DNA of 64,000 nt, from the NCBI GenBank assembly GCA_902593735.1, contig CACJJL010000001.1:62001-126000 (forward strand). The letters are read 5' to 3'. Position numbers and translations under genes: made by a program. Shown here in pieces: positions 905 through 18,316 of the stretch. Origin of the DNA: an uncultured SAR116 cluster alpha proteobacterium. Lineage in GTDB: Bacteria > Pseudomonadota > Alphaproteobacteria > Puniceispirillales > Marisalimonadaceae. Below the pieces are notes generated by a model. It was not told the DNA's origin and did not search any database. It worked only from the letters and a program-made list of their open reading frames with translations. Every line of letters begins with the position of its first letter. The first letter of the stretch is position 1.

Positions 905-1840
905 TTAAATATTTCCGTGTTTTTTGTGAGACAGACAGGGTAAACATTTTATCAGTTCAGAAATTCCTTTGCTTATAGTAACTTTAGGGAAAAAACCAAA
1001 TGTTTCTATTTTTTTATTTGAAACAATATAATTTCTCTGATCTGGATCTTTTCCTACTTCAGCATTCTTAAAATAAAATTCTGGTATTTGTTTTTTAATT
1101 TCTTCACAAAGTTCAATTTTAGATAAGTTAGCTTCTGAAAGTCCTATATTAAAAATCTCTCCCGAAAACTTTATTTCGTTTTCTAAGGCATAAATAAAAG
1201 ATCTAGCAACGTCTGAGACGTGAATATAGTTCCTTTTAAAATTTCCTTCAAACAAAATTATAAATTTATCATTTAGAGCTCTGTTTACAAAATCGTTAAC
1301 TAACAAGTCTAGTCTCATCCTTGGAGAGACGCCAAAAACTGTAGCAAGACGAAAACTTACAGATTTTTCTCTTTCCATCAAAAGCTTTTCTACTTCAACT
1401 TTATCAACTGCATATTTAGAAATTGGTTTTAATGGAGTTGACTCGTCACAATAAATATTGCCTTGACCATCTCCATAGGCACTATTAGTGGTTGGCATGA
1501 TTATAAATTGTTGATTAGAGACCTTTGATAAAAGGAATTTTATTGACTCTTTATTAACGGAATTAGCTCCAACAGGATCTTTTGAGCAAAGGGGTGCTCC
1601 CACATATGCAGCTAAAGGAATTATGATATCATTCTTGGAAATAAGTTTAGTCATTGTTCCTTCATTTCGAACATCATCCACTATTACCTTAAGTTTTTTG
1701 TTAGGTATAAGGTGACCTAAACTAAATTGGTCGTACATATGATTATCAATTATAGTTACATTATATTCGTTTTCTAAAAGATAACTTGTAAGTACTGAGC
1801 CTATATAACCAGCTCCACCTGTTAGAAGAATGTTTGTCAT
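905..1840 (-). CDS. NAD-dependent epimerase/dehydratase (extended SDR), nucleotide-sugar modifying
   Basis: N-terminal GGAGYIGS Rossmann motif; 'PTTNSAYG...YAVDKVEVEKLL' catalytic S/T...YxxxK. Confidence 0.85.
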   Translation of the reverse strand: MTNILLTGGAGYIGSVLTSYLLENEYNVTIIDNHMYDQFSLGHLIPNKKLKVIVDDVRNEGTMTKLISKNDIIIPLAAYVGAPLCSKDPVGANSVNKESIKFLLSKVSNQQFIIMPTTNSAYGDGQGNIYCDESTPLKPISKYAVDKVEVEKLLMEREKSVSFRLATVFGVSPRMRLDLLVNDFVNRALNDKFIILFEGNFKRNYIHVSDVARSFIYALENEIKFSGEIFNIGLSEANLSKIELCEEIKKQIPEFYFKNAEVGKDPDQRNYIVSNKKIETFGFFPKVTISKGISELIKCLPCLSHKKHGNI

Positions 1841-2565
1841 AAATATTGCCTATCTTTAAAGTATTTTGGTATCAAGATTTGAGCTGATTTATAATCCAAA
1901 GGAGTCCCAATATCTATAAAAAAATTATTTTGCAAATATCCATATACTTTTTTTTCTCTGATTAATGTTATTAATATTTCATCTTCAAAAGATATTGAGG
2001 ATTTTTTTAACTTTAAAAATTTATTCAAAACACCCTTTTTTATTAAATATACACCGCTATTAATTAATAAATTTTTATCTTTAGAAAAATAAAGTCTCGA
2101 ATTTTTGTCCAAACAGAACTTAAAGTTAGTATTTATTAACTCTTTTTTCCTACAAATTAGAGATAAGTCACTATTTAAATTTTGATGAAATTTAAAAAAA
2201 TCTTCATAATTTATTTCTGATAAAGTATCTCCATTCACGACTAATATATTAGCATCATTATATTTGTTGTCAGAAAAAATTAAACCTCCCCCTGTCCCCA
2301 TAGGTTTGTTCTCGACTTCATAAATCAATTTTGACCCTCTGAATTTATTACCAAAATAATTTTGAATAATCTTGTATTTAAAACTAACTTGAAGAATGAA
2401 AACTTTAATTCCTAAATTAATTAAATATATTAACAAATATTCTAGAAAAGGAATGTTATCAACTAAAGCCATTGGTTTAGGTCTGTCTGGATTAATTTTT
2501 TTTAATCTAGTACCTAAACCACCGGCTAAAATAATAGCAGTATCAGTTGTGTTTTTAGAAATCAT
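1837..2565 (-). CDS. hddC: Sugar-1-phosphate nucleotidyltransferase, HddC-like (D-glycero-D-manno-heptose-1-phosphate guanylyltransferase)
   Basis: 'AIILAGGLGTRLKKINPDRPKPMALVDNIPFLEYLL' nucleotidyltransferase signature; adjacent to HddA-like kinase; 4-nt overlap with the SDR. Confidence 0.75.
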   Translation of the reverse strand: MISKNTTDTAIILAGGLGTRLKKINPDRPKPMALVDNIPFLEYLLIYLINLGIKVFILQVSFKYKIIQNYFGNKFRGSKLIYEVENKPMGTGGGLIFSDNKYNDANILVVNGDTLSEINYEDFFKFHQNLNSDLSLICRKKELINTNFKFCLDKNSRLYFSKDKNLLINSGVYLIKKGVLNKFLKLKKSSISFEDEILITLIREKKVYGYLQNNFFIDIGTPLDYKSAQILIPKYFKDRQYL

Positions 2566-3727
2566 GTATCACGTTTAAAATGTAATCTATAGACTTTTCG
2601 TCAAGATCTGGATAGTTACCTATGTAATATCCATAAAAATGAATGTGATCACAGATAGGATAATTTTCTGGATTTATATTATCAATTAATTTTTTGACAT
2701 ATGGTTGTCTAATTTGATTTCCACCACCAGCACTACCTCTTCTAAATTCAATGTTAGCTGAATTCATATTTTTTTCTAATGTATCTCTTTTATTTTTATC
2801 TTTATTAACAAAAATAAGATTAAAAGCATAATTACTTTGACCATTTAAATCAAAATCAGTGTAAAAAATATCTCCATCTAAACCAGATAAAAACTTATTA
2901 TTATTTTTATTTCTTAAATTTATATTTTTATCTAATCTCAATAATTGGTTAAGACCAATTACAGCATTTAATTCAGTGCTTCTCATATTATATCCAGCAA
3001 CCGCAAAAATAAACTCTGGGTTTAATTGTTCGTTATTTTCAATCCATTTATTTCTGGTTTTTTCACTTTGCATCTCTCTAACTAATCCATGACTTCTATA
3101 TGCTCTCAACAAATCATTATATTCGTCATTATTAGTGCATATCATTCCACCTTCTATTGTACTTAAATGATGAGCATAATAAAAAGAAAAGTTTGATAAA
3201 TGACCAAACGTCCCCAATTTTTTGTCATTAAATTTTGCTCCATGGCTCTCACAAACATCTTCAATTAACCAAATGTTTCTATCCTTAACAATTTCCAAAA
3301 TTTTATTAGTGAGTCCATTGTAACCTTGTGCGTGAGTTAGAAAAATGCATTTTGTATTTTTTGTAATTTTTTCTTCTAATAAGCTTGAATTTATAGCTAA
3401 GTTTTTTAGAGAAACATCAGCAAAAACGGGTGTGAAGCCATTTCTAATTATAGAAAAAACATCTGAAGACCATGTTAAAGGTGGAACAATGATTTCACCT
3501 CCCTCAGGAAAGTAATGTTTTAATAATGATATTGATATCAAATTAGCTGAGGAACCAGAATTTACAAAAATGCTGTGTTTAACTCCTAGCCACTTTGACC
3601 AAGCAATTTCAAAAGCTTTAACCTTTTCTCCTTGAGTAAGACGGACGTTATCATCTTTTAGAAAATTAATTATTGTAGATAAATCATCATTTGTTATATT
3701 ATTTTTCATCAAAGGATAATTTTTCAT
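2555..3727 (-). CDS. DegT/DnrJ/EryC1-fold PLP enzyme of the ColD/RfbH dehydratase type (His in place of PLP lysine)
   Basis: 'FVNSGSSANLISISLLK', 'EDVCESHGAKF', and 'NFSFYYAHHLSTIEGGM', where the aminotransferase Lys position is His186; 390 aa. Confidence 0.8.
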   Translation of the reverse strand: MKNYPLMKNNITNDDLSTIINFLKDDNVRLTQGEKVKAFEIAWSKWLGVKHSIFVNSGSSANLISISLLKHYFPEGGEIIVPPLTWSSDVFSIIRNGFTPVFADVSLKNLAINSSLLEEKITKNTKCIFLTHAQGYNGLTNKILEIVKDRNIWLIEDVCESHGAKFNDKKLGTFGHLSNFSFYYAHHLSTIEGGMICTNNDEYNDLLRAYRSHGLVREMQSEKTRNKWIENNEQLNPEFIFAVAGYNMRSTELNAVIGLNQLLRLDKNINLRNKNNNKFLSGLDGDIFYTDFDLNGQSNYAFNLIFVNKDKNKRDTLEKNMNSANIEFRRGSAGGGNQIRQPYVKKLIDNINPENYPICDHIHFYGYYIGNYPDLDEKSIDYILNVIHDF

Positions 3728-3771: not shown

Positions 3772-4761
3772 ATGATCATTTCAAAAACACCATTTAGAAT
3801 ATCTTTCTTTGGAGGAGGTAGTGATCATCCAAGTTGGTATGAACAATATGGTGGTGCAGTTCTTTCTGCTACAATTAATAAATACTGTTACATAAGTTGT
3901 CGACCTTTAGATGCCTTTTTTAATTATAATTATCGTATTGTATATTCGAAAGTAGAAAGTGTAAACTCAATATCAAAAATTCAACATCCCTCTGCTAAAG
4001 CGGTGTTAGAATATTTTTCTTTAGACAAAAACTTAGAAATTCATCATGATGCGGATTTACCCGCAAAATCAGGTATGGGATCAAGTTCTGCTTTTACAGT
4101 GGGTTTAATAAATGTTTTGTTGGAATATAAAAAACAAAAAATGACAAATATGGAAATTGCTGAACTTGCAATTTATTTAGAGCAAGAAGTAATGAAAGAA
4201 TGTGTAGGTTCACAAGATCAAATCGCTACATCTTTAGGTGGATTTAACAAAATAGATTTTTTAGAAAACAAAAAAATTTTAGTTTCATCTTTGTTGAAAT
4301 ATAAAGATAATATAATAAATTTAGAAAATAACATTCTACTTTTCTATTCAAAAAAACAGAGAATTGCCTCAACAATAGAGTTAGAAAAATTAAAAAATTT
4401 TAAAAATAAAATTGATGAAATGAAATTTATTAGTCAATCGGTTGATCATGGTTTAAGTTTGTTGAAAGCACAAAATTTTGACATTTATGAATTTGGCAAC
4501 TTAATGCATCAAAATTGGTTAAGGAAAAGGAAACTTCATCCCAAAGTTTCGAATGATAGTTTTGATACTGCCTATGATATTGCTATCAAAAATGGTGCGA
4601 TTGGAGGCAAAATGTTAGGTGCTGGAGGTGGAGGATTTGTTCTTTTTGTTGTACCTAAAGAAAAACAAAATAATATAATAAAAGCACTCAAACCATACAT
4701 AAATGTTAAATTTAAATTTGAAAACACTGGTACAAAAAGATATATTACGAACCAAGTCTAA
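3772..4761 (+). CDS. hddA: GHMP kinase, D-glycero-D-manno-heptose 7-phosphate kinase-like
   Basis: 'MIISKTPFRISFFGGGSDHPSWY' and 'LPAKSGMGSSSAFTVGLINVL' GHMP motif; 'GAIGGKMLGAGGGGFVLF'. Confidence 0.85.
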   Translation: MIISKTPFRISFFGGGSDHPSWYEQYGGAVLSATINKYCYISCRPLDAFFNYNYRIVYSKVESVNSISKIQHPSAKAVLEYFSLDKNLEIHHDADLPAKSGMGSSSAFTVGLINVLLEYKKQKMTNMEIAELAIYLEQEVMKECVGSQDQIATSLGGFNKIDFLENKKILVSSLLKYKDNIINLENNILLFYSKKQRIASTIELEKLKNFKNKIDEMKFISQSVDHGLSLLKAQNFDIYEFGNLMHQNWLRKRKLHPKVSNDSFDTAYDIAIKNGAIGGKMLGAGGGGFVLFVVPKEKQNNIIKALKPYINVKFKFENTGTKRYITNQV

Positions 4762-4788: not shown

Positions 4789-6300
4789 TTGATTGACATT
4801 TTATTTGTACATCCAAATGCATCTAAAAAGATATATCAAGATCTTCACAAAAAAGATGCAGCTATTGAGCCACCAATTTGGGCTGGTCTCTTAGCTAATA
4901 GTGTTAAATCTATGGGGAAAGGAGCGGCTATTTTAGACGCAGAAGCTGAGCATCTTTTAGATAGTCAAATTGCTATAAAAGTGCAAGACTTCAAACCTAG
5001 AATTGTGTGTTTGGTAGTATACGGACAACAACCATCTGCCTCTTCGCAGAATATGTCAGGTGCTGTATCTGCGGCAAACGAAATAAAAAAACTTAATCCT
5101 GAAACTTTTATTTTGTTTGTTGGTGGTCATGTCGCAGCGCTTCCAAAAGAAACTCTAAAAAATGAACCAAGTATAGATGCTGTATGTACAAATGAGGGTG
5201 TGTACACAATAAGAGCGCTTGTGTCGGATAAAAACTTTAGATCACATTTAGACAAAATCAATGGTTTGGCTTATAGAGATTTTGAAAATAATATAATTTT
5301 AAATCCATACAATCATCCAGTTGAAAAGAGAAATTTAGACACTATTTTGCCAGGTATTGCTTGGGATTTACTACCATCTTTAAAAAATTATAGAACTGCA
5401 GGATGGCACTCATGGTCAAATAAAAGTGAAAAAAAACCTTTCGCAGCTTTATACACTAGCCTAGGCTGTCCTTACAGGTGTTCTTTTTGTATGATTAATA
5501 TAATTAACAGAACTTTACCAGGCACTGAAATAACCAGTGCGGATAGTAATAAATTTAGAACGTGGACACCTGATTTTATAATTAAGCAATTTGACTTTCT
5601 CGCTAAAAATAACATAGTTAATATTAAAATAGCTGACGAATTATTTGTGTTAAATCCAAATCACTTTATGAAAATTTGTGATTTAATAATTGAAAGAAAC
5701 TATAAATTTAACATTTGGGCATACTCAAGAGTTGATACATGTAAACCAGAATATTTATCAAAACTAAAAAGAGCAGGTGTTAATTGGTTAGGATTAGGCA
5801 TTGAAAACCCAAGTGAAAGTCATAGAGCAGAAATTCACAAATCTGGGTATAAAATCATTAATATTGTAGATCAAATTAAAATGATAAGAAATGAGGGCAT
5901 TAATGTTGGTGGTAATTATATTTTTGGGCTTCCAAACGAAACTCAAGATTCTATGTTAGGAACTTTAGAATTTGCAAAGGAAAATCCAACTGAAATGGCT
6001 AATTTTTATTGTGCAATGGCATATCCAGGGTCTCCTTTATACAGTGAAGCGAAACAAAAGGGTATTGAATTACCCTCAAAATATGAAGGCTTTAGTCAAC
6101 ATTCATATGAAACATTAAATCTAAGCAATGATAATTTAACAGCATCAGAAATTTTAAAATTTAGAGATAAGGCATGGCAAGATTATCATACGCATCAACC
6201 CTATAAGAAATTACTATTAGAAAAGTTTGGAAATAAAGCAGTAGAACAACTAGAAGAAACAACTAAGATTAAACTTAAAAGAAGATTAGTTGATGGTTAA
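4789..6300 (+). CDS. B12-binding-domain radical SAM protein (class B-like / BchE-like)
   Basis: TTG start; N-terminal 'ILFVHPNAS...PIWAGLLANSVKSMG' B12-like domain and 'TSLGCPYRCSFCMI' CxxxCxxC [4Fe-4S] motif; 'WLGLGIENPSESHRAEIHKSG'. Confidence 0.88.
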   Translation: MIDILFVHPNASKKIYQDLHKKDAAIEPPIWAGLLANSVKSMGKGAAILDAEAEHLLDSQIAIKVQDFKPRIVCLVVYGQQPSASSQNMSGAVSAANEIKKLNPETFILFVGGHVAALPKETLKNEPSIDAVCTNEGVYTIRALVSDKNFRSHLDKINGLAYRDFENNIILNPYNHPVEKRNLDTILPGIAWDLLPSLKNYRTAGWHSWSNKSEKKPFAALYTSLGCPYRCSFCMINIINRTLPGTEITSADSNKFRTWTPDFIIKQFDFLAKNNIVNIKIADELFVLNPNHFMKICDLIIERNYKFNIWAYSRVDTCKPEYLSKLKRAGVNWLGLGIENPSESHRAEIHKSGYKIINIVDQIKMIRNEGINVGGNYIFGLPNETQDSMLGTLEFAKENPTEMANFYCAMAYPGSPLYSEAKQKGIELPSKYEGFSQHSYETLNLSNDNLTASEILKFRDKAWQDYHTHQPYKKLLLEKFGNKAVEQLEETTKIKLKRRLVDG

Positions 6301-6318: not shown

Positions 6319-7224
6319 TTAAAGCTTTAACCTTGTAAGAGACCCAGTTGTATAGTTACTGTATGTAGTTTTTTTTTCAATAACAGCATTCTTTTCGGAT
6401 CTTTCACATACAATAAACAAGTTTTCACCAATTCTAGGGATTTCATCGAGGTATTCAACATCTCTATCTGGATGGATTGGGTGGTCTCCAACTAAAATTG
6501 TAGTGTCTATTGATATTCTTGAACCACAATGAGGTTCTCTTTTGGTTTTATGAAGTAATGTATAATCAGATAAATTGAGATAACCTTCATTTGGTATTAA
6601 ACTATCCTCTTTGTAGTTTTCCAAAACCCATTGCATATCGTTATAAGATTCCGAAGTTTTTAAAAAATTATCATCGAATTTGTTTTCACTTATTAAACGA
6701 TAAAAACATAAATAATTTGATTTACAATCACCTATGATTGGTACATGCATATTTAATCCAAAAGGTCCCTCTACCCATGAGTCTGAATGTGGGATCGCAG
6801 TGTTTAAATTTCTATTTTTGTTTTCAGTGATTTCGTCGCCAAATTTTATTCTTATATTTGGGGTAACTCTAAATTTTTTAAGTAGTTCTGGATTAGGTTC
6901 TACTAGAGATGCAGTGATTTCACACCAATGTTTCAAAAATAAATTATATTCTATTGCGTATTCTTTTTTGGGAACAACTGCACCATTTGGAGTAATATTT
7001 GTTAAATCATGTTTGCCAACTTCTACGTTTTGCATGAACTGATCATCATTGTCAGCATATTCAATGTGCATAGCTTTTGAAATATAAGCTTTTATTGAAT
7101 TTTTTAAGTTAAGGAACTGATTACGTGCTATTTTTTTTTCAAGAAAAAAGTTATTACGTTTAGTCATATGCCATTTTTGACTAATTTCGTCCATTCTTTG
7201 TTTTCTGTAATTTAGTGATGACAA
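6319..7224 (-). CDS. Putative non-heme Fe(II)/2-oxoglutarate-type oxygenase (HxD...H...R), paralogue of 10636..11577
   Basis: 'AIPHSDSWVEGPFGLNMHVPIIGD' ... 'LLHKTKREPHCGSRISIDTTI' gives HxD, distal H and R; shares 'NITPNGAVVPKKEYAIEYNLFLK' with the second copy. Confidence 0.6.
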   Translation of the reverse strand: MSSLNYRKQRMDEISQKWHMTKRNNFFLEKKIARNQFLNLKNSIKAYISKAMHIEYADNDDQFMQNVEVGKHDLTNITPNGAVVPKKEYAIEYNLFLKHWCEITASLVEPNPELLKKFRVTPNIRIKFGDEITENKNRNLNTAIPHSDSWVEGPFGLNMHVPIIGDCKSNYLCFYRLISENKFDDNFLKTSESYNDMQWVLENYKEDSLIPNEGYLNLSDYTLLHKTKREPHCGSRISIDTTILVGDHPIHPDRDVEYLDEIPRIGENLFIVCERSEKNAVIEKKTTYSNYTTGSLTRLKL

Positions 7225-7228
7225 TATT

Positions 7229-8149
7229 TTATCCTTTGTTTAAATTAATAATTCTCAAAATTTCTTTTTTAATTTCTTCTGATGACGGAGGAAGATTATC
7301 AACTTTTTTGTCAAAACCTGCTGTTTTATTCTTAAGACCCAATACGCTTACATTGTTTTTCGTATTACACATTAATTCATAAGCAATTGCTTTCGCAATT
7401 CCATCAACATAATCATCATCAAGAACCAATCCTCCATATTTAGAGTTTTTTAGACTCGTCAGTTCTTCTTCGTTAAGTATCAAAGGTTTCAACCTCCATA
7501 GATGTATTAAATTAATTACATAACCAAGTTTAGATAAAGCTTCATGTGCTTTTATTGCGCTAAATCTAGTGATTGAAATGGCAAATATAGTAAAATCAGC
7601 TTTTTCGTTAATTATATTTTCAAAATTCTCTTGATTATCAAAAGATTTTCTATGTTCTGATATATAAAATACTTCTTCTTTTGCCATGAATTCTTTGTAA
7701 ACGGTTGAGTATTCATTAGGTGTCATTGGGCTAAAAATTTTTATACCAGGCATTCTATAATAAATTGAATGATGAGAAGAACCAGCGACTGGCCCAATTC
7801 CACCTTCCATCGCTATTGATCTTACAAATATTGGGCATGGTATCCCCCAAATTTCTTTACTTTTCGCTGCATAATTTATAATTATTGGAGCATTAAACCA
7901 ATTAAAACCTTGATATCTTATAATATAAATTGGCCTTTTGCCTGCCAAAGCAGACCCAACTGCAAACCCCCCTCCTGCTACATCAGCCATTGAAAGTTCT
8001 ATCATACCATCTTCCTCATACAATTCAGGCAAAGTTCCACCAACCCAGCCAACAGCTGACAAGCATTGGCCCATTGCAATGCCATTATTTGTTTTTAAGT
8101 GATCATATACTATTTCTTTAATAGTTTGCCTTAGAGATTTTTGCTGCAT
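7229..8149 (-). CDS. Transketolase-like / pyruvate dehydrogenase E1 beta-like protein
   Basis: 'ADVAGGGFAVGSALAGKRPIYIIRYQGFNWFNAPIIINYAAKS', 'GPVAGSSHHS', C-terminal transketolase domain; overlaps the E1-alpha-like gene by 19 nt. Confidence 0.85.
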   Translation of the reverse strand: MQQKSLRQTIKEIVYDHLKTNNGIAMGQCLSAVGWVGGTLPELYEEDGMIELSMADVAGGGFAVGSALAGKRPIYIIRYQGFNWFNAPIIINYAAKSKEIWGIPCPIFVRSIAMEGGIGPVAGSSHHSIYYRMPGIKIFSPMTPNEYSTVYKEFMAKEEVFYISEHRKSFDNQENFENIINEKADFTIFAISITRFSAIKAHEALSKLGYVINLIHLWRLKPLILNEEELTSLKNSKYGGLVLDDDYVDGIAKAIAYELMCNTKNNVSVLGLKNKTAGFDKKVDNLPPSSEEIKKEILRIINLNKG

Positions 8150-8973
8150 TTTTCCCAGATTTCTTCTATCATTTGATCTGCTAATTCTTGTTTTTTTGAA
8201 TTCTTATATTTATCAATGTATATTGCGTGTCTATCAAATTCTTTTTCGTTATCTATTCCAGCACCCGCATGCCAAAAAAGTCTTTTAGTATTTATATTAA
8301 ATAGAGCAGGTTGGTTTAAAGATGCTCTTTCAAGAGTTTCCCATAAAGCTTTTGGATCGTCATCTACATTGAATGATTGCATACCAAAACCTTTTGCTAC
8401 ATTATTCATTTCCCAATTTCTTCTAAATTTTTTTTCTGTCAATATTGACAAATTATTGTCTTCAACAATAAACCAAATAGGTAAAGATTTGGTGACTGCC
8501 CATCCAATAGATGCTAAAAAATAATCTTCTTCTGCCGCTGCATCACCTGCAAAACATAGAGTAAATATTTTGTTTCCAAAACATGCTCCTGTTGCTATTG
8601 GACCTTGACTTCCCATCAAGCCGTCATGACCAAAGAGATTGATATCTTTTCCTTGTATTGATGCGGATCCTCCCATCCCATTTGCACAACCCTTTGTACT
8701 TCCTAGAAGCTCATAAATTAGTAATTCTAGTTTACCACCAAATGCTAAATATGTTGAATGTCCTCTATGTTGAATGAAAATTTGCTTTTCGTTTTGTTTT
8801 TTGAAATCAAGGTAAGTTGCGATTGTACTAGCTATATATTCTTGGCCTGCAGATAGATAAACTGGAATAGTTATTTCTTTATTTTTAACTGCTTTATAAA
8901 CTTTTTTCTCAAAAGCCCTGCATAAACAAGCTTTATTAAAAATATTAATTTCGTTTTTTTTGTAATCTGTCAT
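8131..8973 (-). CDS. Thiamine diphosphate-dependent E1 alpha-like protein
   Basis: 'QHRGHSTYLAFGG', ThDP motif 'CFAGDAAAEEDYFLASIGWAVTKSLPIWFIVEDNN', 'GKDINLFGHDGLMGSQGPIATGAC'. Confidence 0.88.
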   Translation of the reverse strand: MTDYKKNEINIFNKACLCRAFEKKVYKAVKNKEITIPVYLSAGQEYIASTIATYLDFKKQNEKQIFIQHRGHSTYLAFGGKLELLIYELLGSTKGCANGMGGSASIQGKDINLFGHDGLMGSQGPIATGACFGNKIFTLCFAGDAAAEEDYFLASIGWAVTKSLPIWFIVEDNNLSILTEKKFRRNWEMNNVAKGFGMQSFNVDDDPKALWETLERASLNQPALFNINTKRLFWHAGAGIDNEKEFDRHAIYIDKYKNSKKQELADQMIEEIWEKCSKNL

Positions 8974-9197: not shown

Positions 9198-10625
9198 ATG
9201 GAAATTACAGACAACATAAATCTTTTAAAAAAATATATTCAACCTCTGGTATTTGATTACACTGAATACCCAACAAAAGCTCATTGGGATGAAAGTCTTC
9301 AATCAATTGACTACAAAGAAGCTTTAAAAGATTGGTTGTCTAACAGCGATGGTTCTAACTCTATGTTTTATGTGCACACACCATTTTGTGAACAATTATG
9401 TTATTTTTGTCTATGTTCAAAGGAAATTACTAAAGACTATCAAAAGGTTAAAGATTATCTTTATAATGTTTTATTCAAAGAAATTGACATGCTTGTAGAT
9501 GTTTTCAAAGAAATTGGAAAAAAGCCCAAATTCAAAGAGATATATTTTGGTGGTGGTTCGCCGACTTATTATAAAAAACCAGAATTTCTAGCCTTAAAAG
9601 ATAAGATGAAAGATCTTATAAATTTTGAAAATATAGAAACATGGACAGTTGAAATAGACCCTAGAAGAGTTGATGTCGACAAACTAAAATTTTACCACTC
9701 AATGGGAGTAAATAGATTATCTTTCGGTATACAAGATTTTAATTTAGGAGTGCAACAAGAAATAAATAGAATACAACCACCACAATTGGTTGAAGAATTA
9801 TTGACTGAAGAGATCAGAAGTTTATTTCCTGCAATTAATTTTGATTTGCTAATTGGTCTTCCGGCTCAAACTGTAGAAACTATAGAAGAAACAATTGATC
9901 ATGTTTCAAGAATTAAACCAACTCAACTTCAAACAATGTATATGCATTATAAGCCTAATACTAGACGATATATGACTAATATGGTTAGAAATCAGGCTTT
10001 ACCAGATTTTTATGATAGAAGAGCAATTTTTCATAGAGCTAGAAATCTTTTAATTAAATCTGGATATAAGCAAGCAGGTTTTGAAAGTTATGCACTTCCT
10101 AACGACGAGTTGTCTGAAGCTATGGAGGAGAAGAAAGCTTATTACAACTCTTTAGGTACCCAAGTTGGAGAAGCCAACAATTTCATAGCAGTAGGGAGTT
10201 CTGCTCACGGATCATTCGGAGATTATTATTTTCAAAACTATTATGAAAGAAACTTATATACTGACGCAATAAAATCAGGTGATTTCCCTATTTATAGAGG
10301 CCTTAAACTAAATAAAGAAGACAAGTTGAGAAGAGACATAATAAAAACTATAAGAACTTATTTTAAAATAAGCTTTAAAGACTACGACAACCAATGCATC
10401 AATAGCTTTGTAGATCATTTTGAAAATGAAATTAATCTTTTAAAACAAGTTGAACAAGATGGCCTTCTGATAATGAATGAAGATGGTTTTGAACTAACTG
10501 AAATTGGATATCATTTGTCACCACACATATGTGAAATTTTTGACACTTATAATGACAGAGATGTTTTTAACAAAAACATTAAAATTGAACCTCTTAATTT
10601 TTCGCAAATGAGTGTAGGTAAATAA
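9198..10625 (+). CDS. HemN-like radical SAM protein
   Basis: 'FYVHTPFCEQLCYFCLCSKEITKDYQKVKDYL' matches HemN CxxxCxxCxC; 'YFGGGSPTYY', 'VEIDPRRVDVDKLKFYHSMGVNRLSFGIQDF'; C-terminal HemN-like domain. Confidence 0.88.
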   Translation: MEITDNINLLKKYIQPLVFDYTEYPTKAHWDESLQSIDYKEALKDWLSNSDGSNSMFYVHTPFCEQLCYFCLCSKEITKDYQKVKDYLYNVLFKEIDMLVDVFKEIGKKPKFKEIYFGGGSPTYYKKPEFLALKDKMKDLINFENIETWTVEIDPRRVDVDKLKFYHSMGVNRLSFGIQDFNLGVQQEINRIQPPQLVEELLTEEIRSLFPAINFDLLIGLPAQTVETIEETIDHVSRIKPTQLQTMYMHYKPNTRRYMTNMVRNQALPDFYDRRAIFHRARNLLIKSGYKQAGFESYALPNDELSEAMEEKKAYYNSLGTQVGEANNFIAVGSSAHGSFGDYYFQNYYERNLYTDAIKSGDFPIYRGLKLNKEDKLRRDIIKTIRTYFKISFKDYDNQCINSFVDHFENEINLLKQVEQDGLLIMNEDGFELTEIGYHLSPHICEIFDTYNDRDVFNKNIKIEPLNFSQMSVGK

Positions 10626-10635
10626 GAGTTAACTA

Positions 10636-11577
10636 ATGTCATTAGAAATAAGAAAAAAATATTTTCAATCCCTGACAGAATCATTTGAGTGTAAAAAAAT
10701 TAACGACTTAATGGTAGAAGTCAAAATTAATGATGAGTTGTTTAAAAATTTGCAATTATACGCTGCGATATATTTGTCAAAATGTATGAAATTAGATGCA
10801 TTAACTACTAACATAGATTTATTAATTGAAAAAATCCTAAATAATGAAGGGTGCATTAAAAATATGACACCTAACGGAATGCTTGTGCCAAAAAGAGAGT
10901 TAAGTTTAGACTTTAATAACTTTTTAAAATCTTACATCAAGATATTAGACAGCTTAAAGATTTTTTCAAAAATTGAAAACTTTCACTTTCCACCTAATAT
11001 CAGGTTGAAGTATGGTGTTGAAGATAAAAGTAATCTAAATAGAGCTCACCCTACAGAAAAAATGCACTCTGACACTTGGACTGGAGCTAACCCAAATTGG
11101 ATTGCTGTTCATTTATATATACTGGGTGATATTGAAAATAATCACCTAAAATATGCTTATCCACCGAGTGATTTTTCAGAGGATTGGCTGAAACCAGTTA
11201 AAAAGGCTGAAGACGGTGATAATTTTGCCAAAAAATTTAAAGAAATTGATTATGAACCAAAAGCTGGTTTTATGATATTGGCAGACGCTACAATTATTCA
11301 TCGATCTTTTCGTAAACCTGGTGCGGGAATAAGAGTTTCACTCGATACTGGTTTTGATGGATTAATACCAGATTTGAAAAGTTTTAAGGATGCTAAGATT
11401 GATAACATGAATGTGTCATCGATAAGAAAGGAAGAAACAGTTGATAAAGATACTTTTTGGAGTATGGGTGACAAAAATTTTTGTTTTTTTCCAGATAATT
11501 TTGAAACACATAATGACACTCTAGGCGGATATAAACATCCTAGTAATCCAAAGATTTTTAAATTAGTAAATGATTGA
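10636..11577 (+). CDS. Putative non-heme Fe(II)/2-oxoglutarate-type oxygenase (HxD...H...R), paralogue of 6319..7224
   Basis: 'EKMHSDTWTGANPNWIAVHLYILGD' ... 'ATIIHRSFRKPGAGIRVSLDTGF'; shares 'NMTPNGMLVPKRELSLDFNNFLK' with paralogue. Confidence 0.6.
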   Translation: MSLEIRKKYFQSLTESFECKKINDLMVEVKINDELFKNLQLYAAIYLSKCMKLDALTTNIDLLIEKILNNEGCIKNMTPNGMLVPKRELSLDFNNFLKSYIKILDSLKIFSKIENFHFPPNIRLKYGVEDKSNLNRAHPTEKMHSDTWTGANPNWIAVHLYILGDIENNHLKYAYPPSDFSEDWLKPVKKAEDGDNFAKKFKEIDYEPKAGFMILADATIIHRSFRKPGAGIRVSLDTGFDGLIPDLKSFKDAKIDNMNVSSIRKEETVDKDTFWSMGDKNFCFFPDNFETHNDTLGGYKHPSNPKIFKLVND

Positions 11578-12521
11578 CTTTTATGAAAAAATTGTCATTA
11601 ATTTCAATTCTATATAATGAGCAAGAATGCGTTGAACCCTTTGTTAGAGAAGTTGTTAAAGTTTTAAAATCAATTAAAACGATTGATTATGAAATAATTT
11701 TTATTAACGATTGTTCAACAGACAACTCCCTAATAAATATTGTTAACCAGCACAAAATAAATCCTAAAGTTAAACTTATCAACATGTCGAGAAGATTTGG
11801 ACCTATGGAAAGTATAATGGCAGGTGTTAAAGCAGCTAGTGGTGATGCGCTTATAAATATTGATATAGACCTGCAAGATCCACCAAGATTAATTCCTCAA
11901 ATGGTCAAATATTGGATAGAAGATGAATATGATGTTGTCTATACCACAAGAACAAAAAGAAAAGGAGAAACCATTTTAAAGAAAGTTATTTCTAATATTG
12001 GCTATAGAATACTTAAGTTATTTACATATGTTGAGATTCAAAGAGATTCTGGTGACTTTAGATTAATTTCTAGAAGAGTTATAAATGAATACGTAAAGTT
12101 TGGTGAAAATCTACCTTTTTTTAGATTTGTTATAGATTATATAGGTTTTAGTAGAAAACAAATTTTTTATGAAAGAGAGGCTAGAAAGTATGGTTCTTCT
12201 GGTCATCCATTAGGTTTGGGAGTAATATTTAATTTTTTTGAGATTTCTCTGACGCCATTTTCAGACTTCCCTGTCCGGTTTTCACTTATACTTGGACTTA
12301 TATCTTTTTTAATATCAGCAATTCTTATATTGAGGACTTTATTTTTATTTTTTACTGGAGAAGATAGCATTAGTTCAACTTCATTATTTTTGGGTATCTT
12401 AATATTTGGAAGTTTTCAAAGTTTAATGCTAGGTTTCTTAGGACTTTATATTGGTTCTATTCATAGAGAAGTTAAAAAGAGACCTAGATACATTGTTAAT
12501 AATTATATTGGTTTCGATTAA
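11574..12521 (+). CDS. Glycosyltransferase family 2, polyprenyl-phosphate type with C-terminal TM helices (DPM1/ArnC/GtrB-like)
   Basis: 'SLISILYNEQECVEPFVREV', 'FINDCSTDNSL', 'INIDIDLQDPPRLIPQMVKYW', two C-terminal hydrophobic segments; overlaps upstream stop. Confidence 0.88.
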   Translation: MTFMKKLSLISILYNEQECVEPFVREVVKVLKSIKTIDYEIIFINDCSTDNSLINIVNQHKINPKVKLINMSRRFGPMESIMAGVKAASGDALINIDIDLQDPPRLIPQMVKYWIEDEYDVVYTTRTKRKGETILKKVISNIGYRILKLFTYVEIQRDSGDFRLISRRVINEYVKFGENLPFFRFVIDYIGFSRKQIFYEREARKYGSSGHPLGLGVIFNFFEISLTPFSDFPVRFSLILGLISFLISAILILRTLFLFFTGEDSISSTSLFLGILIFGSFQSLMLGFLGLYIGSIHREVKKRPRYIVNNYIGFD

Positions 12522-12538
12522 TAAAATATTTAAAAAAA

Positions 12539-13531
12539 CTAAGCACACCAATCAATTTTGTTAAATTTTTTATCACTTTTAGTTGAAATGACTAAATCAT
12601 CTTTGGACAACTCAAATTCAAATGCTTTTGATGTAAATTTTTTATCTTTTTTACTAAGATTTATAATCAAAATGGGTTTAAATAATCTATTATGAACATT
12701 ACAACGAACTCTACACCTATTTTTTAAAAATTTCTCCATAGTGTATTTAATTCCAACATCGTTATTCACATCTAAATCTCCACCTTCGTGAGGGCACACT
12801 CTATGAAAAATATGAAGGAAGTTATCTTTTCTGTATATTTGAAAACCTAAAATATCAATGTCTCCAAATTTGTTCATCTGGTTATTTTTAATTTCGTTTA
12901 GATTAATCTTAATGGATGATTTTTCTGAATTTTCTTTTGTAAAAAAACAACGTTGCTTTTGAATATTTATAGTGCTGTCAAAACTGAAAGTAGAATTATC
13001 TCTATCAAATACAAATCCTTTTTGCCTTAAATCACCTCTTCTATTTAAAAAAGGATGATCATCATTTTTATAGTCTTCAAAACTTTTCTTAAACATTTTT
13101 TTAAAAAATGGTGTGAACATACTGAGGATAATATTACTTTTGCAACCAATGTAGTATGTAATTTTTGACTCACATTGATCATTTTTCAAGTCTGTTTCAG
13201 TGTTTACTTTCATGAAATAAAAACAAAAAAAACTAAAAGTTTCTAAAACAGTGTTTTTTGTATCATCTTTCATTAAGGTAACAATTGGGAAGGTAAATCC
13301 CAAAAATTTAAAGTATCTAATAAAAGATGCAATTTCCCCATAATGTAACCCTTCATTTCCAAACCCATACGCTAAATTAGGATGTAAATGATTAAAATGC
13401 GGAACATCTCTGTGATTAAATAGTGCATCGCAACTTTTATAATTACCTACTATTGAGTAATCGAAAGTTCTAAATTTAAAACCTTTGTCTTTACTTATTT
13501 TCAGAATATCCCTGTATCCTACAGTTTGCAT
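12539..13531 (-). CDS. Protein with C-terminal Rieske-type [2Fe-2S] motif, N-terminal domain unknown
   Basis: 'HRVCPHEGGDLD...CRVRCNVHNRLFKP' gives CxH...CxxH; N-terminal ~230 aa not recognised. Confidence 0.6.
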   Translation of the reverse strand: MQTVGYRDILKISKDKGFKFRTFDYSIVGNYKSCDALFNHRDVPHFNHLHPNLAYGFGNEGLHYGEIASFIRYFKFLGFTFPIVTLMKDDTKNTVLETFSFFCFYFMKVNTETDLKNDQCESKITYYIGCKSNIILSMFTPFFKKMFKKSFEDYKNDDHPFLNRRGDLRQKGFVFDRDNSTFSFDSTINIQKQRCFFTKENSEKSSIKINLNEIKNNQMNKFGDIDILGFQIYRKDNFLHIFHRVCPHEGGDLDVNNDVGIKYTMEKFLKNRCRVRCNVHNRLFKPILIINLSKKDKKFTSKAFEFELSKDDLVISTKSDKKFNKIDWCA

Positions 13532-14286: not shown

Positions 14287-16080
14287 TTAAAACAACTGAT
14301 AAACATCATTGTCGTAAAAAGTATAAACCTTATTCAATTTTATGTTCCAATCTTGAGGTGTTACTATGTATTTAATTTTCAATTTTCTTAGCTTGTTTAT
14401 TAATTCCTCTGAAACACTGTATTCCCAGTATTTTTTAAATAAATCACTATTGAATTGGATTAGGGTATCATTTTTTTTGGATAACTTAGGATTTAAAAGA
14501 TTAATACCATAGGTAATCTTAAACAAATCTATAAATTCAACCATTTTATTTTGATTGTAAAAAATTCCATCTTGGATAGAAGGCATCATAAATGGAACAA
14601 TTTCGCATGACCTAAGTAAATAATTGTATTGAATAAAATTTGATACTAACACACCTCTGCCGGGCAATATCTTTGGACAATTATTTTCTTTTATTAAAAG
14701 AGCATTAGCTTTAAATTTAGAGTTAGAAAAATAAGAAATAGAAGAGAATTTCTTTTCATAAAAGAACACTAATAATGCTAGAACAGATGACAAGAAAATT
14801 ATTTTTTTGTCTTTGCCTTTGATATTAACTATAGCTTTAAAACTAAATAAAATTAGTAAAACTACTAAAAATGATAAATTATATAAATTCAATTTAGTAA
14901 ATATTAATAATTGATTAAGTGAAATATTATTTATCATAAAAGAGTAAAAAAATGGCCAAAGAAAAAAAAATGACGAGAAAACAAATAAAGGTAAAAACTT
15001 TTTATGAAAAAATAAAACAACTATAAATTTAAAAAAAAATAATTTTACAACAAAATTTGAAAAAATTAAAAACCTTCCTGGTATATATTGATCTATAAAT
15101 AAAAAATTAAAAAATAACAAAATTTGACTAATTATAGCAATAAGGAATGGTAGCATAAAAGTTACAAATAATAGGCTATAATTATCATTAAAATAGTTAT
15201 AATGTTGATACTTTAATAAAAAAATTAGGTAAATCGCAAACAAAATTGATGGAATATAAAAACTTAAATCAAATGATTGGTTTCTGTGAGAAAGTTCCCA
15301 AATTTTGTGAAGTGTAATTGAAAGATCAACGTTTTGGATACTATCGTCGTATGAAATTAAAGTGGACGTTTTAATAACATTTTGTGTATAACTGAAGGAT
15401 ACGATAAAAAAAGTAAATAAAAATAAAATTATAATTAGATAAATAATATTTTTTTTTTCAATTTTGAAAATATCTATTTTTTTTAGCAATAAGAAAAACC
15501 CTAGAATTAATAAATTAAAAATACCCAAAATTGGGTGAACAATGATATTTAACAGACTGATAAATATGCTTTTTGTATACTTTTGGTTTAAAAATATAGA
15601 AATTGAGCCAATAAAAATAGCACTTGAAAAAGTTGATAAGTGAGGATTGTATGTTATAGGATATTCATATGAAGGATTTATAAAGGTAAATAAATTTATT
15701 TGTGTAATAAACCACACAAAGATTAAAATTAAAAATGCATTATCTGTAACATACTTTTTAATTATGTTTGCACAAGAAAACCAAAAGATTATGTTTGTAA
15801 AAAAAAACAAACTTATTGAAAGGAAATAATGGCTTACTCCAAGTTTTAAAAAGATTAAACCTAAGTAGTGAATAATACTCTTACCAGTTGCTACATCAAC
15901 AAAAAAAACTGTACTTTGATTAAACAATGAATTTAAAAGAATAGACTCATCTACTGCGTAGTGATTTTTTGCACAAAATAAAGTTATAAAAATACAATAT
16001 AAAAATGATATGTTTTTGAAGGAATGATCAAAATTAACTTCAAACTGATTATAAATTATTTTTTTTATTGTTTTGTACAA
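14287..16080 (-). CDS. Polytopic membrane protein with C-terminal soluble tail, GT-C-like topology, function unknown
   Basis: Many hydrophobic segments over 597 aa; located in glycan cluster; no specific family recognised. Confidence 0.65.
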   Translation of the reverse strand: MYKTIKKIIYNQFEVNFDHSFKNISFLYCIFITLFCAKNHYAVDESILLNSLFNQSTVFFVDVATGKSIIHYLGLIFLKLGVSHYFLSISLFFFTNIIFWFSCANIIKKYVTDNAFLILIFVWFITQINLFTFINPSYEYPITYNPHLSTFSSAIFIGSISIFLNQKYTKSIFISLLNIIVHPILGIFNLLILGFFLLLKKIDIFKIEKKNIIYLIIILFLFTFFIVSFSYTQNVIKTSTLISYDDSIQNVDLSITLHKIWELSHRNQSFDLSFYIPSILFAIYLIFLLKYQHYNYFNDNYSLLFVTFMLPFLIAIISQILLFFNFLFIDQYIPGRFLIFSNFVVKLFFFKFIVVLFFHKKFLPLFVFSSFFFLWPFFYSFMINNISLNQLLIFTKLNLYNLSFLVVLLILFSFKAIVNIKGKDKKIIFLSSVLALLVFFYEKKFSSISYFSNSKFKANALLIKENNCPKILPGRGVLVSNFIQYNYLLRSCEIVPFMMPSIQDGIFYNQNKMVEFIDLFKITYGINLLNPKLSKKNDTLIQFNSDLFKKYWEYSVSEELINKLRKLKIKYIVTPQDWNIKLNKVYTFYDNDVYQLF

Positions 16081-16664
16081 TTTAAATCTAATTCTTTTTC
16101 AACTTCTGCTATAATTATATGTGCAAAGCAAATATAAGTTTCTTGAATAATTTGGGTGTTTTTTGATTGTACTACAAATGGAATATCACTGTTATCAATT
16201 AAGTTTTTACCTGACAATCCTGTAAATGAGATTCTAGATAAACCTAACTTTTGTCCAAGTTTCATACCATTATTTACATTTTTAGAATTACCGCTAGTTG
16301 ATATGCCTAGAAGAACATCTCCTTTTTTTGCAAGACCAGCAATCTGTCTTGTAAAAATATTGTCAAAGTGAAAGTCGTTAGCATGGGCCGTTATAAATGC
16401 GATATCAGTTGCTAAGGAAATAGCACTAAGTGGGCCTCTATCGTGGTTTTTTTTTTCTAATACGCTCATAAATTCGGCAGAAATATGTTGACTGTCTGCA
16501 GCAGAACCACCATTACCAAAAATTAGAATTTTGTTACCTCTTTTCAATGTAGTTGATAATTCACTTACAATTGATTTGCAAATTTTTTCCATCTTGTTTA
16601 AAGTTTTCATCTTGACTTCTGATGATTCCCGTATATGTGCTTCAAAATTTGTATAACTTTTCAT
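16065..16664 (-). CDS. gmhA: Sedoheptulose 7-phosphate isomerase (SIS domain)
   Basis: 'GNKILIFGNGGSAADSQHISAEFM' and 'DVLLGISTSGNSKNV' SIS/GmhA signatures. Confidence 0.93.
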   Translation of the reverse strand: MKSYTNFEAHIRESSEVKMKTLNKMEKICKSIVSELSTTLKRGNKILIFGNGGSAADSQHISAEFMSVLEKKNHDRGPLSAISLATDIAFITAHANDFHFDNIFTRQIAGLAKKGDVLLGISTSGNSKNVNNGMKLGQKLGLSRISFTGLSGKNLIDNSDIPFVVQSKNTQIIQETYICFAHIIIAEVEKELDLNCTKQ

Positions 16665-16844: not shown

Positions 16845-17339
16845 TTATAATTTAGACTTCAAAGTTTCATAGAATTTTCCTTCTTCTATTAAAATTGACC
16901 CGCATCCTGCATTTTCACCAGTTTTAAGATCTACATTAGTATTTCCAACCATATAACTTTTTTTGATATCTATATTGTATTTATAGCATAAATCTAAAAT
17001 CATTTTAGGGGATGGTTTTCGACAATTACAACGGCGCATTTTTTTGTCTAATGCATTAGGGTGATGAATACAATACCTAATTTCAACTATTTCTATATCA
17101 TTTTTATACAATTCAGTCGTAAGTTTTTTATTAAATGAAACCATATCTTCTAACGTAAATTTTTTTAAACTAATACCTCCTTGATTAGAAACAACAAAGA
17201 GTTTAAATCCTTTATCCAAAGCAAATCTTAACCCTTCAATTACACCTTTTAGTAATTCAAAATCTTGTATTTTATGAACATACCCATTATCTCTAACTAA
17301 GGTACCATCTCTATCTAAAAATAAAGCTGAAATAGACAC
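16845..17339 (-). CDS. gmhB: D-glycero-manno-heptose 1,7-bisphosphate phosphatase (HAD)
   Basis: 'ALFLDRDGTLVRDNGYVHK', 'FVVSNQGGI', 'CIHHPNALDKKMRRCNCRKPSPKM' Zn-loop of GmhB. Confidence 0.9.
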   Translation of the reverse strand: MSISALFLDRDGTLVRDNGYVHKIQDFELLKGVIEGLRFALDKGFKLFVVSNQGGISLKKFTLEDMVSFNKKLTTELYKNDIEIVEIRYCIHHPNALDKKMRRCNCRKPSPKMILDLCYKYNIDIKKSYMVGNTNVDLKTGENAGCGSILIEEGKFYETLKSKL

Positions 17340-17353
17340 TTTTTCAACTCCCT

Positions 17354-18316
17354 TTATAAATTATTTAAGAAGTAATCATAAGTCTTACAGAGACCTTCTC
17401 TCAATTTTGTTTTGTAACTCCAACCCATAGAATAAAGCTTTGAAACATCTAATATTTTTCTCATTGCACCGTCTGGACTTAAGTTATCAAATTCTATTTT
17501 ACCATTGTAATTAACAATTTCGGCAATTAAACATGCCAAATCAAATATAGAAATTTCTTCGCCACTTCCGACATTTAGATGTGGTACATTATTAATAATC
17601 TTTTCATATTTATTTTTTTCAGAATTCATTACAAAAATTGCAGCATCTGCAAAATCTTCAATAAATAAAAACTCTCTTTTTGGTTTACCAGTACCCCATA
17701 AAACTATTTTCTCTGACTCATTTATTTTTGCCTCATGCATACGACAAATTAAACTAGAAATTACATGAGATTCTTCAATATTATATTTATCTCCAGGTCC
17801 ATATAAATTTGTAGGAACAACAGCTCTGTAGTCAAGATTATGAGATTTTTCATATTGCTTGTTATAACTATTACAAAGTTTTAATCCTGCAATTTTTGAA
17901 ATAGCATAAGGTTCACTAGTTAACTCAAGTGGTCCTGTTAAAAGTTCTTCTTCAATAGTAGGGAAGCTTGTTATTTTTGGATATACACAGCTAGAACCAA
18001 TAAAAAGTATTTTTCTAACATTGTTTAAAAAACAAGAATTTATAATGTTAGTTTGAGAGACTAGATTATTGTAAATAAACTCTGCAGGATATTTACTATT
18101 GGCTAATATTCCACCAGATTTACCACCAGTTATATATACTTGATCAATAGTGTGTTTTTGAAAGAAAAATTCTACATCTGACTGAGAGGTTAAATCTAAA
18201 TTTTCATTAATAAATATTTTAATATTTTCACCAGATTTTTTAAGTCTATTGATGATAGCTTTACCTATCATATTTTCGTGGTAAGTAACAAATATGTTAA
18301 TAATTTTTTTAGACAA
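17354..18316 (-). CDS. GDP-L-fucose synthase (Fcl/WcaG)-like nucleotide-sugar epimerase/reductase with altered Gly-rich motif
   Basis: 'GSSCVYPKI', 'EPYAISKIAGLKLCNSYN', 'VPTNLYGPGDKYN', 'PDGAMRKILDVSKL' match Fcl; N-terminal motif reads 'TYHENMIG'. Confidence 0.82.
   Translation of the reverse strand: MSKKIINIFVTYHENMIGKAIINRLKKSGENIKIFINENLDLTSQSDVEFFFQKHTIDQVYITGGKSGGILANSKYPAEFIYNNLVSQTNIINSCFLNNVRKILFIGSSCVYPKITSFPTIEEELLTGPLELTSEPYAISKIAGLKLCNSYNKQYEKSHNLDYRAVVPTNLYGPGDKYNIEESHVISSLICRMHEAKINESEKIVLWGTGKPKREFLFIEDFADAAIFVMNSEKNKYEKIINNVPHLNVGSGEEISIFDLACLIAEIVNYNGKIEFDNLSPDGAMRKILDVSKLYSMGWSYKTKLREGLCKTYDYFLNNL

Follow-up and report, generated by a model that had tools for sequence, protein, structure and literature searches.

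Protein pairs resembling the alpha and beta chains of pyruvate dehydrogenase (PDH) E1 have been proposed to acetylate 4-keto sugars in the avilamycin, paulomycin and everninomicin pathways, on the basis of genetics or by proposal (PMC4425429, PMC4753412, PMC10338323). These pairs (AviB1/AviB2, Pau11/Pau12 and EvdU5/EvdS3) belong to actinobacterial antibiotic clusters, where their proposed role is to place a C2 unit onto a 4-keto sugar. In yersiniose biosynthesis the ThDP-dependent ligation of acetyl to a 4-keto-3-deoxy nucleotide sugar, supplied by a PLP 3-dehydratase, is carried out by YerE, a single acetolactate-synthase-type flavoprotein chain. In the capsule heptose pathway of Campylobacter jejuni, which employs Cj1427 and the HS:5 C3-dehydratase, the ketone is reduced and no ThDP enzyme takes part; in vitro, Cj1427 and a C3-dehydratase together yield GDP-D-glycero-4-keto-3-deoxy-heptose (PMC10680097). 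O-antigen-type sugar genes and glycosyltransferases are also found among the LPS genes of pelagimyophages, aquatic T4-like phages comparable to those described below, and the main text of that paper, unlike the module presented here, mentions neither pyruvate dehydrogenase nor thiamine (PMC7029224).

Here we analyse a gene pair at 7229-8973 of a 64,000-nt stretch of DNA (the window) from an uncultured SAR116 cluster alphaproteobacterium. Like the antibiotic pairs, to which it is likened by description and not by sequence, it encodes PDH-like alpha and beta chains within a sugar cluster, and the same role is proposed for it. It differs from them in its GDP-heptose or deoxyhexose pathway, in being shared with phages, in chain length (280/306 aa, compared with 325 and 345 aa for Pau11 and Pau12) and in having Asp for the catalytic Glu. 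With YerE it would share the reaction and the type of acceptor, but two E1-type chains stand in place of the single-chain flavoprotein. With C. jejuni it would share the precursor steps up to GDP-4-keto-3-deoxy-heptose, the ThDP pair being the difference. Our favoured reading, which we consider fairly probable, is that this E2/E3-free pair joins a two-carbon unit to a nucleotide sugar at its C4 ketone, the most likely donor being pyruvate.

The E1-type gene pair and its relatives

The pair consists of the following features:
7229-8149, minus strand: E1-beta-like subunit, 306 aa, pyrimidine-binding half (Pfam Transket_pyr, 1.4e-10)
8131-8149, minus strand: 19-nt overlap of the two genes, read from the ORF coordinates
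8131-8973, minus strand: E1-alpha-like subunit, 280 aa, ThDP/Mg-binding half (Pfam E1_dh, 1.9e-19)

The preliminary description of this DNA had reported overlapping E1-alpha-like and E1-beta-like genes, which the coordinates and the E1-type Pfam domains of both chains confirm. An overlap of 16-37 nt is kept in 24 related bacterial loci, so the two genes form a real, conserved pair. AlphaFold (AF2) models of E1-alpha (pLDDT 86.5) and E1-beta (pLDDT 83.8) had as top PDB matches BCKDH/PDH E1-alpha and PDH E1-beta (1w85_B), respectively, and by Pfam and by these models both chains have the E1 alpha/beta fold. Pfam, profile and fold searches all place the pair inside the PDH/BCKDH E1 family, far under the curated cut-offs (98.6 bits for E1-alpha vs TIGR03182, cut-off 393.85; 53.8 bits for E1-beta vs PRK09212, cut-off 321).

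The fold comparison also bears on a transketolase-like ketol transfer, in which hydroxypyruvate or a ketose phosphate would donate a glycolaldehyde unit to a keto sugar, giving a hydroxyacetyl branch, or to an aldose phosphate, which would become a longer ketose precursor. The structural matches do include a split transketolase and human transketolase, and E1-beta matches a transketolase profile weakly (22 bits, covering the C-terminal domain alone), but both chains are nearer to PDH/BCKDH E1 in sequence and fold. In the Pfam search E1-alpha carries E1_dh and no Transketolase_N domain; the combination of Transketolase_N with a transketolase profile, typical of split transketolases, is not found in the pair. 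A true split transketolase does occur in a glycan cluster of SAR11, next to genes of the RmlC and ColD types (L077:5821-7424), a point in favour of ketol transfer.

A scan of genome contigs yielded 24 close relatives of the pair, 57-67% identical, in SAR11, SAR116, Betaproteobacteria and one gammaproteobacterium. The family is sporadic, occurring in 3 of 136 genomes from the window's order and 17 of 347 from the SAR11 family. A maximum-likelihood tree of E1-alpha unites the 25 bacterial members (support 100/99) and leaves two more distant ones outside; lipoyl-E2-linked E1s form a separate group (100/99) which the window protein does not join, and a third E1 group has several members in or near glycan clusters. 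The E1-beta tree is split in the same way (family 100/100, lipoyl-linked group 92/93). Among the matches listed, plasmid and phage proteins are about 24-33% identical to E1-alpha; the annotated ones examined adjoin E2 genes, and a match on a Streptantibioticus plasmid (L037) is without annotation.

In a further E1 group (L071, L072, L073, L081, L082) several members adjoin sugar-nucleotide genes and lack E2, and fused alpha-beta forms of about 700 aa belong to it as well (L101-L103, L107, L109-L111). This group may include the AviB-type enzymes.

In an alignment of 104 homologues, E1-alpha residues H69, R70, H72, D144, N173 and H235 are invariant; the H-R-x-H motif belongs to the active site, and D144 and N173 bind Mg. 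The motif GDA..EDN is a variant of GDG..NN. In E1 enzymes the catalytic Glu of E1-beta activates ThDP. At this position (56) all 104 pairs have Asp, while every outgroup shown has Glu, and at position 122 Ala replaces a conserved His in 103 of the 104 members; the Glu and His expected of a 2-oxoacid dehydrogenase E1 are thus both changed. One distant member (G438 contig) has an open E1-alpha and an E1-beta interrupted by stops and frameshifts (L069:10800-11753); this broken copy has Asp in the catalytic Glu column and retains the His.

The preliminary description had found no E2 or E3 gene near the pair, had considered a 2-oxoacid dehydrogenase role unlikely and had suggested searching the genome for a separate PDH E1. 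In the source genome (1.81 Mb, 84% complete) the E2 domain PF00198 occurs once, at C11:32.2-32.9 kb; its neighbours on contig 11 are the only other E1-alpha (C11:29.3 kb) and a lipoyl-bearing E1-beta (C11:30.6 kb). A complete PDH separate from the 7229-8973 pair is encoded on contig 11, and no E2 or E3 genes lie near the pair itself. The outcome named in advance as refuting, grouping with PDH or acetoin dehydrogenase E1, did not occur in the tree. The tree, the residue changes, the scores under the curated cut-offs and the lack of a linked E2 rule out a housekeeping PDH or acetoin dehydrogenase. PDH, BCKDH and acetoin dehydrogenase E1s do have the same fold and alpha/beta split. That shared fold, and the E2/E3 set elsewhere in the genome, would allow a degenerate or borrowed dehydrogenase E1 served by the housekeeping E2/E3. 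We regard this as highly improbable, given the position of the pair outside the lipoyl-linked clade, the exchange of both E1-beta residues, the absence of lipoyl genes near the pair in the loci examined and the phage copies, which travel without E2.

Glycan cluster and proposed reaction

The other genes of the window on which the proposed pathway draws are:
905-1840, minus strand: Cj1427-like GDP-heptose C4-dehydrogenase, proposed source of the 4-ketone (PDB 6vo6/6vo8, 1.5e-100; we take 6vo6 to be Cj1427)
1837-2565, minus strand: HddC-like heptose-1-phosphate guanylyltransferase (NF049965, 5.2e-44, under the curated cut-off)
2555-3727, minus strand: ColD-like PLP 3-dehydratase with His for the PLP Lys (AHHLSTIEGG; ColD 2gms, 3.6e-59, aligned)
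3772-4761, plus strand: HddA-like heptose 7-phosphate kinase (NF049969, 3.2e-47, under the curated cut-off)
4789-6300, plus strand: B12-binding radical SAM protein (Pfam Radical_SAM, 1.2e-17; B12-binding, 7.9e-11)
6319-7224, minus strand: protein of unassigned family directly after E1-beta (no Pfam, NCBIfam or PDB match)
16065-16664, minus strand: GmhA-like sedoheptulose-7-phosphate isomerase (TIGR00441, 1.2e-42)
16845-17339, minus strand: GmhB-like heptose bisphosphate phosphatase (TIGR00213, 8.5e-40)
17354-18316, minus strand: Fcl-like GDP-sugar epimerase/reductase (NF047922, 397.5 bits, cut-off 500)

The 6319-7224 protein may be a non-heme Fe oxygenase, to judge by eye from an H-x-D..H pattern; in 15 viral loci its homologue is the next gene after E1-beta on the downstream side. 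At 9198-13531 the glycan cluster also has a HemN-like radical SAM protein (309 bits; HemN cut-off 325), a second protein paralogous to that at 6319-7224, a glycosyltransferase-like gene and a Rieske protein.

As in the AviB-type systems, an E1-like pair without E2 is found in a nucleotide-sugar cluster with a keto-sugar. The link of an E2/E3-independent pair to a keto-sugar pathway, put forward in the preliminary description, is hence retained, but its assignment of ketone formation to the ColD-like enzyme is corrected: the ketone would come from the Cj1427-like dehydrogenase (905-1840) or, elsewhere, from a 4,6-dehydratase. Judged from its sequence, the ColD-like enzyme is predicted to remove the C3 hydroxyl and keep the ketone.

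In the proposed route, sedoheptulose 7-phosphate would be converted by GmhA, HddA, GmhB and HddC to GDP-heptose, which would be oxidized at C4 by the Cj1427-like enzyme and deoxygenated at C3 by the ColD-like enzyme, making GDP-D-glycero-4-keto-3-deoxy-heptose the probable acceptor in the window. With ThDP bound between E1-alpha and E1-beta, a 2-oxo acid (pyruvate being the likeliest) would lose its carboxyl group, leaving a two-carbon carbanion that would attack the C4 ketone of the nucleotide sugar in place of lipoamide. The expected product is a 4-C-branched sugar with a tertiary alcohol, the transferred unit being probably acetyl. Later reduction and tailoring could involve the Fcl-like protein, possibly as the reductase for the sugar or its branch, together with the B12 radical SAM and oxygenase-like proteins, and the end product would be a surface-glycan building block.

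Among the 25 bacterial loci with the pair, where flanks were 10 kb or less and counts are thus lower bounds, we noticed a bicupin in 22, a DJ-1/PfpI protein in 20, an HddA-like kinase in 18, a ColD-type PLP enzyme in 15, a Cj1427-like dehydrogenase in 14 and a B12 radical SAM protein in 10. The ColD-like proteins have His instead of Lys with a sole exception, an ordinary Lys-type aminotransferase (L023) counted among the 15. Eight loci have, close to the pair, an aldo-keto reductase, the enzyme class to which Pau7 of the paulomycin pathway belongs. A close ColD-like gene was present somewhere in the genome in 8 of the 12 family genomes tested directly. The gammaproteobacterial locus (L020) has GMD and RfbH, i.e. 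a second module type.

In SAR11, a Cj1427-like gene accompanies E1-beta in 14 of 17 genomes, compared with 40 of 347 overall (Fisher p 4e-12), and a ColD-like gene in 13 of 17, compared with 31 of 347 (p 3e-12), both p values being indicative since the 347 genomes are not independent. Both genes also occur without the E1 pair among these genomes. The pair thus tracks C4-ketone and 3-dehydratase genes and not GmhA (6/25 bacterial loci), which, added to the sequence and fold evidence, makes ketol transfer unlikely in our view.

The module in phages

The preliminary description made no mention of phages, in which the module proved to be widespread. An IMG/VR scan revealed 85 virus contigs encoding the family, of which 80 were retained, some near-identical to one another. 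Both E1 genes are present in 79 of the 80 loci, within a compact cassette lying on one strand (1063 of 1085 ORFs) and made up of cupin, DJ-1, E1-alpha, E1-beta and dehydratase, often with B12 radical SAM. Counted over the 80 loci, the partners are DJ-1 (77), cupin (75), a PLP enzyme (69; His-type, i.e. a 3-dehydratase, in 61), B12 radical SAM (49), a Cj1427-like gene (35; 34 by a stricter count, 26 of these with HddA) and HddA (31). A search of the phage flanks, about 10 kb each, for GmhA, GmhB and HddC gave one weak HddC match and nothing else, a point against the proposed route.

The viral loci encode either a Cj1427-like enzyme (34) or a GMD-like one (GDP-mannose-4,6-dehydratase-like; 16) and never both (p 4e-5). 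Both module types accompany the 3-dehydratase, with a few loci in which it or the ketone-forming enzyme was undetected. Since GMD-like enzymes replace the dehydrogenase while the 3-dehydratase stays, we infer that the shared acceptor would be an NDP-4-keto-3-deoxy-sugar, as in yersiniose biosynthesis, and not heptose as such.

The most constant partners, DJ-1/PfpI and bicupin, have no place in a yersiniose-like scheme, which speaks against ligation at C4. The pair could instead act in the same pathway by making a small activated unit, or on another carbon together with DJ-1 and cupin. We think this improbable: the 3-dehydratase and the C4-ketone former are also frequent, the latter in two interchangeable forms, and DJ-1 and cupin are absent locally at the window locus. 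In the window's whole genome no cupin match was found, and the DJ-1 match was weak.

Contigs that also encode a T4-type polymerase, tail sheath, portal and terminase show that the module is carried by real phages. On the 95.7-kb contig G805 the genes follow one another as cupin, HAD phosphatase, B12 radical SAM, DJ-1, E1-alpha, E1-beta, oxygenase-like, HddA, ColD-like and Cj1427-like; a DNA helicase and an SbcC-like exonuclease border this stretch, and the same contig encodes terminase, portal, tail sheath, head protein, scaffold and a T4-type polymerase. Terminase and portal are likewise encoded on G798 (186 kb). For the contigs examined with terminase, portal, tail sheath and DNA polymerase, misbinned bacterial DNA is rejected. 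A PF03237 terminase match was obtained for 13 of 50 larger contigs (12 above the cut-off), so phage status is verified for part of the 80. Phage origin of the window itself is unsupported, as its contig has pyrC-, pyrF- and transporter-type genes, judged from translations.

Phage E1-beta had no match in PHROGs, and neither subunit closely matched any of 50,697 catalogued phage records; the E1-pair module in uncultivated phages appears to be previously undescribed. In the combined tree bacterial rows stand at several places among viral ones, and well-supported branches force at least three changes. Within the module family, the rooted alpha tree has viral sequences as its earliest branches (moderate support), and the two family members furthest removed lie on bacterial genome contigs. 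Such a topology would fit a phage reservoir with repeated bacterial capture.

With less assurance than for the ligation itself, we tentatively propose a phage-carried, host-shared route to C4-branched 3-deoxy sugars through a lipoyl-independent E1-type ThDP carboligase with Asp for the nearly universal Glu, captured several times by bacteria. Phages would probably use it for remodelling host O-antigen or for decorating their own parts. If so, a heptose precursor would become a nine-carbon sugar, and an E2-independent E1 carboligase would build quaternary carbon centres on nucleotide sugars, which E1-type enzymes have until now been mostly presumed to do. The route would also give a natural outlet to GDP-4-keto-3-deoxy-heptose, known from Campylobacter work in vitro only. 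As an aquatic phage sugar module common to SAR11 and SAR116 bacteria, yet outside phage protein families and catalogued phages, it bears on the contest between phages and these bacteria over surface glycans.

A second, shorter E1-like pair of about 200 + 178 aa, whose beta chain is without the C-terminal domain and keeps the usual catalytic Glu, was observed at L026:10915-12057, in L025 and L030 and in the viral loci L133, L178 and L191; in some loci it lies directly after or near the main pair.
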